Assembly: GCA_029781825.1 (NCBI GenBank)
Contig: JAKOVY010000078.1
Coordinates: 1 to 35,817, forward strand
Source: Bacillota bacterium
GTDB taxonomy: Bacteria; Bacillota; Syntrophomonadia; Syntrophomonadales; DTU052
Direction of reading: 5' to 3'
Length of the DNA: 35,817 bases
A model generated the notes under the pieces. It was not told where the DNA came from, searched no databases, and saw nothing but the letters and a program-made list of their open reading frames with translations. A program made the translations under genes and the position numbers. This document shows, in pieces, positions 11,254 through 30,356 of this stretch (its first letter is position 1; every line of letters begins with the position of its first letter).

Positions 11254-12171
11254 CTAAGTTTCCTCGTCCTCTTCCTCGTATTCTCTCTCGTTTTCGCACG
11301 CTTTGGCAGACTCCAGCAGTTCTCCTACTGTCATCGAAGAATCCCCGGCAAGCATGGCCTCAATCAGAACTCTTTCGGTCACGACCCCGAGAACCTTGCC
11401 TTGAGCGTCGATAACCAGAATTACAGAAATAGTATCGGGCAGGATGCGGTTTAAAATCCGGCTGATCCTGACACCGCTGTGGGCTACGGTCACCTGACCG
11501 CCGGCCATATCATTCTCCGCCGGCAGAAGCCGCTTGTGCAGCAGATAGCGGGTATATCCATAAGGCAGCATCTGCAGTTCTTCTCTGGCCTTATAACCAA
11601 GAAAACCTGCTATCAAGAGCAGGTTAAACGCGCGGGGATCCTGAAGTCCCAAGTAAACACCTGCAACGGCCAGGACCAGAGCCAGAATCTGTCCCGACCA
11701 GGAGCCAATCGCCGTTGCCTTCCGCAGCCCAACTCTGACGGACAAAAGGGCCTTGAGAATTCTCCCTCCGTCCAACGGCAGTGCGGGCAGGAGGTTGAAC
11801 AACCCCAGCAACAAGCTAAACTCCATAAAAAAAGAAAAATCCACTAAGCTTAGATTTCTCTCCATTATATAGGTTAATCCGGACGAAAACAAGCTCGCTG
11901 CCGGGCCCGCCGATGCCACAAGTATATCGCTTTTCCAGTTGACACCGACCAACCCGTCGGTAAGTATTTGCCCTCCAAAAGGGAAAAGCTCCACCCTCAG
12001 CAGTTTCAAACCGCAGGCTAGAGCCATTATCACGTGTCCGGCCTCATGCAGGAGAAGGGCCAGGATAACCCACAGGATGTCGACAAACCCGGTTGACAAG
12101 CATATCAGACAAATCAGCACGACTACGGGGTTGACCGCCAGATCAACTCCCTTTACCGAGCCCAATCTCAT
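11254..12171 (-). CDS. spoIVFB: Site-2 (M50) intramembrane metalloprotease with CBS domain, SpoIVFB-like
   Basis: A 305-residue polytopic membrane protein. Zinc site: HEAGH (His42, Glu43, His46) in the second hydrophobic segment and the third ligand in LPLDGGRILKALL. The C-terminal part (about 225-290) is a CBS-type domain (SVILVIDAQGKVLGVVTERVLIEAML), as in SpoIVFB of Bacillus, where ATP binding tunes cleavage of pro-sigma-K in the mother cell. An acidic tail (EREYEEEDEET) ends the protein. The start codon overlaps the spoIVFA stop by four bases (ATGA). Position after the min genes matches Bacillus spoIVFB; it could instead be a housekeeping M50 peptidase, but the pairing argues for SpoIVFB. 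Confidence 0.85.
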   Translation of the reverse strand: MRLGSVKGVDLAVNPVVVLICLICLSTGFVDILWVILALLLHEAGHVIMALACGLKLLRVELFPFGGQILTDGLVGVNWKSDILVASAGPAASLFSSGLTYIMERNLSLVDFSFFMEFSLLLGLFNLLPALPLDGGRILKALLSVRVGLRKATAIGSWSGQILALVLAVAGVYLGLQDPRAFNLLLIAGFLGYKAREELQMLPYGYTRYLLHKRLLPAENDMAGGQVTVAHSGVRISRILNRILPDTISVILVIDAQGKVLGVVTERVLIEAMLAGDSSMTVGELLESAKACENEREYEEEDEET

Positions 12172-12740
12172 ACCGGGTTTTCGGAAGCGAGAAAGCCCTC
12201 TGGATTAATAGGCCCATCCTGGTTTTTCAGTTCCAGATAGAGGAGTTCGCCTCCCCTGCCCAGCGGGGTAGATTCATCCACCGTCTCCCCCTCTTCCACC
12301 CTGACCTCTCGCAACCCACGAACCACTGAGGTCAGGTCCTCACTGTGCTCCAAAACCACCTGATAACCGTTTTCCTGCAGGCTTACGGAGACAACCTCCC
12401 CGCTGAGAACCGGATACACCGGGGTACCGGATTTAATTCTCAATACCACTCCCGGATTAAAAGCCTGATCTCCGGTTCGAGCATTGTAATACCATCCGAA
12501 ATGACGAACCACCTCGATATAGTCACAGGGCAAGCGCAGGGCTGAAGTAGATGCTGCCGGTGATAATACCTGATCCTCCCATATAGATTTAAGCCACCCG
12601 CTTACATCGTAGTCCGTGCTGGTGGTATAGCTCAGCAATGAGCCGATCAGGCCGTCCTGCTGACCGGTCACAGGGTAAGCCCAGGTTACGGCGATTATCA
12701 GGATCAACGCTATAACCAGCCTAGTCTTAAAACTGCTCAT
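12168..12740 (-). CDS. spoIVFA: Degenerate M23/LytM-domain membrane protein, SpoIVFA-like
   Basis: A 190-residue protein with one N-terminal membrane segment (LVIALILIIAVTWAYPV) and an extracytoplasmic LytM-fold domain (about 75-190). The zinc ligands of active M23 peptidases are gone: the usual HxGxD position reads FNPGVVLRI and the usual HxH position reads LLYLELK. This is what is known for SpoIVFA, which holds SpoIVFB inactive until SpoIVB cleaves it. It sits immediately before spoIVFB with a 4-base overlap. The ATG at 12740 follows GGAGGG with six-base spacing; a GTG at 12743 is adjacent. Similarity to SpoIVFA rests on position and degenerate fold, so it is an inference. Confidence 0.75.
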   Translation of the reverse strand: MSSFKTRLVIALILIIAVTWAYPVTGQQDGLIGSLLSYTTSTDYDVSGWLKSIWEDQVLSPAASTSALRLPCDYIEVVRHFGWYYNARTGDQAFNPGVVLRIKSGTPVYPVLSGEVVSVSLQENGYQVVLEHSEDLTSVVRGLREVRVEEGETVDESTPLGRGGELLYLELKNQDGPINPEGFLASENPV

Positions 12741-12858
12741 CACAGACCCTCCTCGTCCTCTTAAAAATATATTGGAGGAAGGCCCTAATATACCATTTAA
12801 GTGGTTTTATTTCCCATATGAATTGGATCTTGTTCGTCGAGGACTGCAGGCGGGAGGT

Positions 12859-13995
12859 TCAGAAAACGATCTTTTTGCCTTTGATATTGATGTCCAGAAT
12901 AATGCCGACCGCAATCATATTGGCCATCATAAAACTGCCCCCGTAGCTTACAAAGGGCAAGGGGACTCCGGTAATCGGCATAAGTCCGATAGACATTCCG
13001 ACGTTTTCAAAAATATGAAAAAGCCACATGGAGATTATTCCGATCACCGCCAGGGTGCTGAAGAAGTCCTTCGCATTATAGGCTATAAACAGAGCCCGCA
13101 TAAGGATTACCGCAAACAGGAGCAGCAGCAGCGCAGCACCGATGAAACCGAATTCTTCACCAACGACGGCAAATATGAAATCCGTATGGTGTTCGGGCAG
13201 GAAGTTTAACTGGGCCTGGGTTCCATGAAAAAGGCCTTTGCCGATTAAGCCCCCGGAGCCAATGGCCACCAGAGACTGTATTATATTCCAGCCTGCACCC
13301 CGGCCGCCCTGTCCATCATTATATGGATCCAGGAACACGGTAAGGCGTTTAACCTGATATTCTTCCAGGGGCAGCCACATCCCAAACTGGATGTGAAGAA
13401 ACAATGCGAGTATAACCAGTGCCAGAGCTCCGGCTATGATCCCTGTCAGAATTCGAGGGTTGGCTCCCGCCACAAACATCATGCCGAAGGCTATGGCAAT
13501 AAACACCAGAGCAGTCCCCAGATCGGGCTGCGCGGTAACGAGCAGAACCGGGAGTCCCAGATAGATGAAACAGGGAAACATATCCCGCAGCGTGTGGAGC
13601 ATTCCCTGGCGTTTGGCCAGGAAATCCGCAAAGCAGAGAATAAACAGTATTTTGGCAAATTCCGCCACCTGGATGTTAAAGCCTCCGATTGACAACCACC
13701 CCTGCAGACCTCGTTGTTCGGTTCCTAAAACCAGAACCACGATGAGCAGGATATTGGTCCCCACATATATTAGACCGTTATAGCGGCTCACCAGACTGTA
13801 ATCCACATTAAGCATTATCAGCACCAGAACGATGCCGATGCCCAGGGATATCAACTGTTTTTGCAGATAATAAAATGGGGCATCCGCCTTGATGCCGCTG
13901 CTGGCACTGGTGAGTATTACCAGGCCAAAAACAATAAGCACTGCAAGTGCCATAACAAACGGTTTATCGATCACCTTTAACGCCCGGCGATTCAT
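12859..13995 (-). CDS. rodA: RodA peptidoglycan glycosyltransferase (SEDS family)
   Basis: A 378-residue polytopic protein of normal SEDS length with about ten membrane helices. It polymerises lipid II into glycan strands along the lateral wall with PBP2 (mrdA, also in this cluster). Seen: the conserved HTDFIFAVVGEEFGFIG loop and the C-terminal GVPLPFVSYGGSFMMANMIAVG motif typical of RodA/FtsW. RodA rather than FtsW is inferred from the company of mreBCD and mrdA. The ATG at 13995 has GGGAGGG seven bases upstream; an open frame extends back to 14058. That ribosome site lies inside a long inverted repeat and behind its own strong promoter. Confidence 0.92.
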   Translation of the reverse strand: MNRRALKVIDKPFVMALAVLIVFGLVILTSASSGIKADAPFYYLQKQLISLGIGIVLVLIMLNVDYSLVSRYNGLIYVGTNILLIVVLVLGTEQRGLQGWLSIGGFNIQVAEFAKILFILCFADFLAKRQGMLHTLRDMFPCFIYLGLPVLLVTAQPDLGTALVFIAIAFGMMFVAGANPRILTGIIAGALALVILALFLHIQFGMWLPLEEYQVKRLTVFLDPYNDGQGGRGAGWNIIQSLVAIGSGGLIGKGLFHGTQAQLNFLPEHHTDFIFAVVGEEFGFIGAALLLLLFAVILMRALFIAYNAKDFFSTLAVIGIISMWLFHIFENVGMSIGLMPITGVPLPFVSYGGSFMMANMIAVGIILDINIKGKKIVF

Positions 13996-13996
13996 A

Positions 13997-14071
13997 ATAA
14001 CCCTCCCGCTATGGACGGAGTCAAATTGATTATAAACCTGCCATCCGTCTCTGTCCATCCGGGAGGGTTAT
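13997..14071 (-). repeat. Inverted repeat covering the rodA ribosome binding site
   Basis: Left arm 13997-14020 and right arm 14049-14071 pair as 12 perfect bp (ATAACCCTCCCG / CGGGAGGGTTAT), a small bulge, ATGGAC / GTCCAT, one mismatch, and GAG / CTC, around a 28-nt loop. In a minus-strand RNA the rodA Shine-Dalgarno GGGAGGG is wholly inside the 12-bp helix. No U tract follows, so it is not a terminator. Confidence 0.8.
14029..14057 (-). promoter_or_regulatory. Strong sigma-A-type promoter for rodA
   Basis: Minus strand: TGGACA (14052-14057, 5/6), 17-bp spacer, TATAAT (14029-14034, 6/6). The expected start is near 14021-14022, inside the loop of the inverted repeat, giving a leader of about 27 nt that keeps the Shine-Dalgarno but lacks the pairing arm. 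Confidence 0.75.
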
Positions 14072-14124
14072 CCAAACTGTGCGGCACAGAAGATGCAAGT
14101 GCGCACCAGTTATTATTCGCCTGT

Positions 14125-14400
14125 TTAGATTACGCCTTTTTTGATTCTCAGGACCGGAATATTGGCTACCAGGGCTACCGTATTGTCCATGCTGTCAAAG
14201 CTGATATCGAGTGCGTCCTCGTCAATTTCGATGTACTCACGAATAACCCGGATCAGGTCCTCCTTTAATGCCTCCAGCAATTGGGGGCATGAATTGACGC
14301 GGTCATGAACCAATACCAGTCTGAGCCGTTCCTTGGCTACATGCTTGCTGCCGACTTTATCCCTGTCCCTCCAGAAAAGCCTGCTTAAGAATTGTAACAA
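14125..14400 (-). CDS. minE: Cell division topological specificity factor MinE
   Basis: About 91 residues when started at TTG 14400 (LLQFLSRLFWRDRDK...), the normal MinE length. The N-terminal amphipathic helix binds membrane; ERLRLVLVHDR is the MinD-activating beta strand/helix; the C-terminal half forms the dimer domain. MinE drives MinD oscillation and clears MinCD from midcell. The TTG start is preferred because it follows GGGGGG and falls 13 bases after the minD stop; the frame is open further upstream into minD, which is unlikely to be used. Presence of MinE marks a Clostridia-type Min system, unlike the DivIVA-only system of Bacillus. Confidence 0.88.
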   Translation of the reverse strand: MLQFLSRLFWRDRDKVGSKHVAKERLRLVLVHDRVNSCPQLLEALKEDLIRVIREYIEIDEDALDISFDSMDNTVALVANIPVLRIKKGVI

Positions 14401-22714: not shown

Positions 22715-22745
22715 AAAGGTACCCTTCAAGCTGAAGGGTACCTTT
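22715..22745 (-). terminator. Intrinsic terminator of rex
   Basis: AAAGGTACCCTTCA (22715-22728) and TGAAGGGTACCTTT (22732-22745) form a 14-bp perfect stem with a 3-nt loop. U-rich flanks are present on both strands, so it may also stop plus-strand transcripts. Confidence 0.8.
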
Positions 22746-30312: not shown

Positions 30313-30319
30313 AAAGTAT

Positions 30320-30356
30320 CAAGGGGACGGTTTGTTGAACCGTCCCCTTGTTTCTT
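30320..30356. terminator. Strong, probably bidirectional terminator between EamA and ysxC
   Basis: CAAGGGGACGGTT (30320-30332) and AACCGTCCCCTTG (30338-30350) form a 13-bp perfect stem with a 5-nt loop, followed on the plus strand by TTTCTT. It separates the convergent EamA and ysxC genes; the minus-strand U tract is poor. Confidence 0.75.

Follow-up and report, generated by a model that had tools for sequence, protein, structure and literature searches.

The rodA gene of this Syntrophomonadales genome lies behind minCDE, and a promoter is embedded in a long inverted repeat ahead of it. Does this leader distinguish RNA begun at the local promoter from RNA arriving through the upstream genes? 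An earlier note had proposed so, with the ribosome site buried in read-through RNA only. Within the window (the whole stretch of DNA analysed, 35,817 nt), all elements claimed there were found in place on the minus strand, which carries the whole element and the gene order minC-minD-minE-rodA. The minE and rodA genes are co-directional and 129 nt apart, and the 75-nt element lies in the gap between the minE stop codon (14125) and the rodA ATG (13995-13993). The features are as follows:

14125-14400, minus strand: minE open reading frame, with its stop codon 53 nt upstream of the hairpin
14060-14071, minus strand: 5' outer arm ATAACCCTCCCG, upstream of the -35 element and complementary to the 3' outer arm at 12 of 12 positions
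14049-14058, minus strand: 5' inner arm ATGGAC-A-GAG, overlapping the -35 element (from the sequence and the minus-strand fold)
14052-14057, minus strand: -35 element TGGACA (promoter scan, 11/12), conserved across the order
14029-14034, minus strand: -10 element TATAAT, in the loop (promoter scan), conserved across the order
14021-14022, minus strand: predicted transcription start, placed 7-8 nt after the -10 element from the position of the latter
14011-14020, minus strand: 3' inner arm CTC-C-GTCCAT (from the sequence and the minus-strand fold)
13997-14008, minus strand: 3' outer arm CGGGAGGGTTAT, containing the Shine-Dalgarno (SD) sequence GGGAGGG at 14007-14001
12859-13995, minus strand: rodA open reading frame, 378 aa, with its ATG at 13995-13993

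The stem is long and interrupted. In the minus-strand fold its inner pairs were ATGGAC/GTCCAT (14058-14053 with 14016-14011) and GAG/CTC (14051-14049 with 14020-14018). The promoter TGGACA-17-TATAAT lies between the outer arms, with the -35 element within the inner arm, and its 11/12 match was the top one in the 4 kb scanned. A tblastn search with minE placed it directly 5' of rodA in 87 of the 109 leaders; at 1e-30, 79 of 81 genomes had relatives of rodA itself, FtsW/SpoVE-type paralogues among them. Downstream of rodA (11254-12743 of the window) we observed M23-peptidase-like and M50-protease-like genes whose order and length resemble spoIVFA/spoIVFB. Further strong inverted repeats occur in the window at 30314-30356 (19-nt arms, 89% complementary) and 22715-22745 (14-nt perfect arms).

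Folding of positions 13980-14080 returned the stem as it had been described, at -38.1 kcal/mol compared with -22.9 +/- 3.3 for shuffled sequences (z -4.6; 0 of 200 shuffles as good); this value was computed on the plus strand, which forms the mirror stem, and the minus strand folds likewise. The idea that access to the SD depends on the transcript agreed with computed opening costs of 18.0 kcal/mol in read-through RNA versus 4.6 kcal/mol in promoter RNA. It has to be qualified in that the short promoter RNA is partly self-paired, its own CUCC/CCGU being able to pair with the SD region. As a genome background, 390 kb out of 2.4 Mb were sampled. Ranked by the energy of the duplex between upstream sequence and SD, rodA was first of 338 genes (-36.1; mean -16.4, sd 5.2), and no second SD-start site in the sampled 390 kb combined a promoter of at least 10/12 with a perfect SD-covering arm of 9 bp or more. 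The paired arms occur a single time in the genome, which rules out a repetitive element. A riboswitch or other known RNA family was likewise ruled out by the absence of any Rfam match at gathering score within the window.

Located between minE and rodA, a stem of this kind could also act mainly by stopping or cutting read-through RNA, either as a terminator-like structure or as a target of RNase III. Insulation would then be achieved to much the same effect but not at the level of translation, and cleavage by RNase III could even free the SD. The stem is indeed long and GC-rich, the sequence following the SD (TTATTATG) appears moderately T-rich by eye, and terminator-like hairpins follow minE in genome G001, where no rodA is found at that place, and in leaders L224-L226. 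On the other hand, a scan restricted to loops of 3-8 nt called no terminator in the minE-rodA gap, most leaders of the second order described below have no T run after the stem, and the coevolution seen there centres on the SD arm. We therefore regard termination or cleavage as the main function of the hairpin as quite unlikely.

Three genomes of the genus carry rodA at this place (G000, G002 and G003), and each of them has the hairpin and retains the computed burial of the SD. Opening costs computed for read-through and promoter RNA were 18.0/4.6, 17.5/2.7 and 12.4/8.1 kcal/mol, and with shuffled upstream sequence the genus leaders required 4.7-6.9 kcal/mol. The highest promoter-RNA value belongs to G003, which re-registers the inner helix and whose short RNA still partly hides the SD. 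Among these three genomes the core of the 5' arm varied at 1 of 10 positions, compared with 24 of 53 in the adjoining upstream spacer (Fisher P 0.036); if the two outermost bases are counted, the arm varied at 3 of 12 (P 0.17). The changes within the arms comprised one that keeps a wobble pair, one pair lost at the helix end (G003) and one bulged pair (G002). The folding and the comparison with close relatives that the earlier note had suggested came out mostly in its favour: the genus keeps the promoter and the SD-burying outer stem next to a diverged spacer, but two-sided covariation of the arms was absent among its three genomes. In another genome placed in the same genus (G001, leader L067), minCDE is present without rodA after minE, and a terminator-like hairpin with a T run is found there.

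Beyond the genus, the promoter and the hairpin part ways. A promoter match of at least 10/12 stands ahead of the SD in 45 of 56 Syntrophomonadales rodA leaders. The distance from the -10 element to the SD is 17-21 nt in the family of the source genome and 4-9 nt in most leaders of the order; with the latter spacing, seen in leaders L006-L063, the predicted rodA leader is close to minimum length. The hairpin is absent from the sister genus (G004) and from most of the order. Its order-wide conservation was rejected, since Syntrophomonadales leaders outside the genus keep the promoter and show no excess burial of the SD. When promoter-bearing leaders of the order without the genus, plus two from elsewhere in the phylum, were compared with swapped pairings, the difference was small (-13.3 native versus -12.6 swapped, permutation P 0.03). 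G033, also outside the genus, may be a further instance, its duplex of -27.1 ranking first of 41.

Because the sister genus has no such arm, the hairpin may be young, and one could ask whether it is a recent, neutral product of template switching beside the conserved promoter, not yet put to regulatory use. The conservation comes from three genomes and carries a modest P value, as such an origin would allow. However, the adjoining spacer has already changed at nearly half of its positions while the arm core was kept, rodA stands out as the most extreme of the 338 genes sampled, and the same layout with coevolving arms recurs in another order. A neutral origin without function accordingly appears improbable to us.

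This second order (Syntrophaceticus/Thermacetogenium type) was represented by 20 genomes, including Syntrophaceticus schinkii and Thermacetogenium-like ones, with 18 readable rodA leaders. In 15 of the 18, a TGGACx/TAGACx-17-TATAAT-like promoter was enclosed by a long stem whose 3' arm holds the SD. As in the window, the 5' arm of most leaders stopped just short of the -35 element, 41-55 nt ahead of the predicted start. The arms of the two clades are dissimilar in sequence, and those of the second order vary among its genomes with complementarity kept. Column-by-column covariation on MAFFT alignments was set aside because purine/pyrimidine arms slip in register, and a swap test was used instead; a first version, which scored opening energies, suffered from imprecise placement of the SD and was noisier. 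Among 12 representatives, native pairs reached -27.8 kcal/mol versus -22.5 kcal/mol for swapped pairs, and 0 of 2000 permutations attained the native sum. Each 5' arm fitted its own SD arm better than the SD arms of other genomes. Base composition does not explain this result, since the native-swapped difference was -0.70 +/- 1.00 in a control with shuffled upstream sequence compared with the real -5.34. The arms of the second order thus coevolve, and the arm coevolution looked for in relatives was found here, in leaders of the same layout. That this layout is present at rodA in the second order suggests real regulation. In G101, a complete genome of this order (2,939,057 bp), rodA pairing was the strongest of 8 promoter-bearing genes sampled and not the strongest among all 381 genes. 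A different SD hairpin is present in the leaders of G095, G096 and G097 (L220, L218 and L217, respectively); there the 5' arm sets in directly behind the -10 element, so that the predicted start falls within that arm.

The comparison also bears on the possibility that the dyad acts as DNA, its inverted half-sites around the promoter binding a repressor or looping the DNA, with RNA pairing being incidental. Regulators often bind just upstream of -35 elements, where the 5' arm is located, and the arms flank the promoter exactly, with centres 63 bp or about six helical turns apart. Such a site would, however, have the SD itself as one of its half-sites, it would have to tolerate arms that differ between the clades and among second-order genomes as long as complementarity is preserved, and its paired arrangement would be present only once in the genome. 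We consider a protein-binding dyad very unlikely.

How far the layout extends was assessed with 55 leaders from 42 further families. Three of the 46 testable leaders gave P < 0.05, about what chance would yield, and generality across the phylum was rejected in the absence of any general trend in this sample. In the order of G085, leaders L224, L225 and L226 display, by eye, a terminator-like hairpin upstream followed by an SD hairpin with TATAAT in its loop; leaders of the same family from G130 and G167 were not significant in the phylum-wide sample. As anecdotes, the terminator-like hairpins of G001 and L224-L226 fit a need to keep minE transcription from expressing the downstream gene. L078, G033, G157, G222 and L224-L226 look right by eye and are mentioned as leads, not as claims.

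Taken from sequence comparison and modelled folds, the data support the earlier interpretation of the leader, and we think it fairly likely that it serves as a cis-acting translational insulator, keeping mre/min read-through RNA from being translated into RodA. A sigma-A-type promoter would be placed between the arms of a long hairpin such that RNA begun there starts past the 5' arm, leaves the SD accessible and allows RodA to be made. Any RNA entering from mre/mrdA/minCDE would carry both arms, fold and hide the SD, and translation of minE would end 53 nt upstream, too far away to melt the stem. Because read-through RNA is predicted to hide the SD and promoter RNA to expose it, RodA output would track the rodA promoter rather than transcription of the neighbours. 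Within this cluster of shape and division genes, the hairpin probably serves to set the dosage of rodA separately. A more far-reaching reading holds that silencing of rodA read-through had more than one origin in Bacillota and renders the expression of RodA (elongation) and Min (division) mutually exclusive. Transcription of mre/min through rodA would then occlude the rodA promoter and yield an untranslatable rodA message, as a bacterial counterpart to the long undecoded transcripts of yeast. We offer this speculatively and consider it rather unlikely.

The principle of silencing through a promoter inside a hairpin is already known. In IS10-type fold-back inhibition, transcripts begun outside the element include an inverted repeat in which the translation start is buried, and the mobile element is thereby protected from activation by its surroundings. 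The earlier note had drawn this parallel, and it is apt insofar as RNA from outside is predicted to bury the start of rodA in the same manner. An IS-type element was nonetheless rejected here: no element ends, transposase gene, genomic copies or other mobile-element feature were seen, the gene is rodA and its paired arms are unique in the genome. T4 gene e, together with I-TevI, and sigG of B. subtilis are closer precedents, those of T4 having been studied experimentally. For T4 gene e, late promoters are located where the 5' strand of an SD-burying structure is encoded; translation of the long RNA is lowered about 100-fold, while the promoter-proximal RNA is translated well, and T4 soc, 49, I-TevI and segB as well as mobE of phage Aeh1 are of the same type (PMC3014915, PMC2988022). 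The rodA promoter similarly sits immediately upstream of the ribosome site, between the arms of an SD-burying helix. Gene e, however, belongs to a phage and is timed by a late sigma factor, whereas rodA resides on the chromosome, serves the cell wall and is preceded by a housekeeping-type promoter, with no temporal switch apparent. For sigG, a hairpin of 20+ bp was proposed to block translation of spoIIG-operon read-through RNA, and it cannot form in RNA from sigG's own promoter (PMC5942855). Like rodA, sigG is a chromosomal gene of the same phylum-level group, and for rodA, too, the hairpin is predicted in read-through RNA only; it differs in encoding a sporulation sigma factor behind a forespore promoter, while rodA follows minCDE and has a sigma-A-type promoter.

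What is new, then, is the recurrence of this principle at a housekeeping cell-wall gene, with comparative support. Documented examples of such read-through silencing come mainly from late genes of phages, and a single sporulation gene has been proposed as another. Its apparent occurrence at a core cell-wall gene, where the layout is kept within one genus and recurs with coevolving arms across a second order, suggests that it is used by bacteria to provide one gene of a shape and division cluster with a dosage of its own. The layout also constitutes a simple sequence signature with which other operons containing internal promoters may be scanned.
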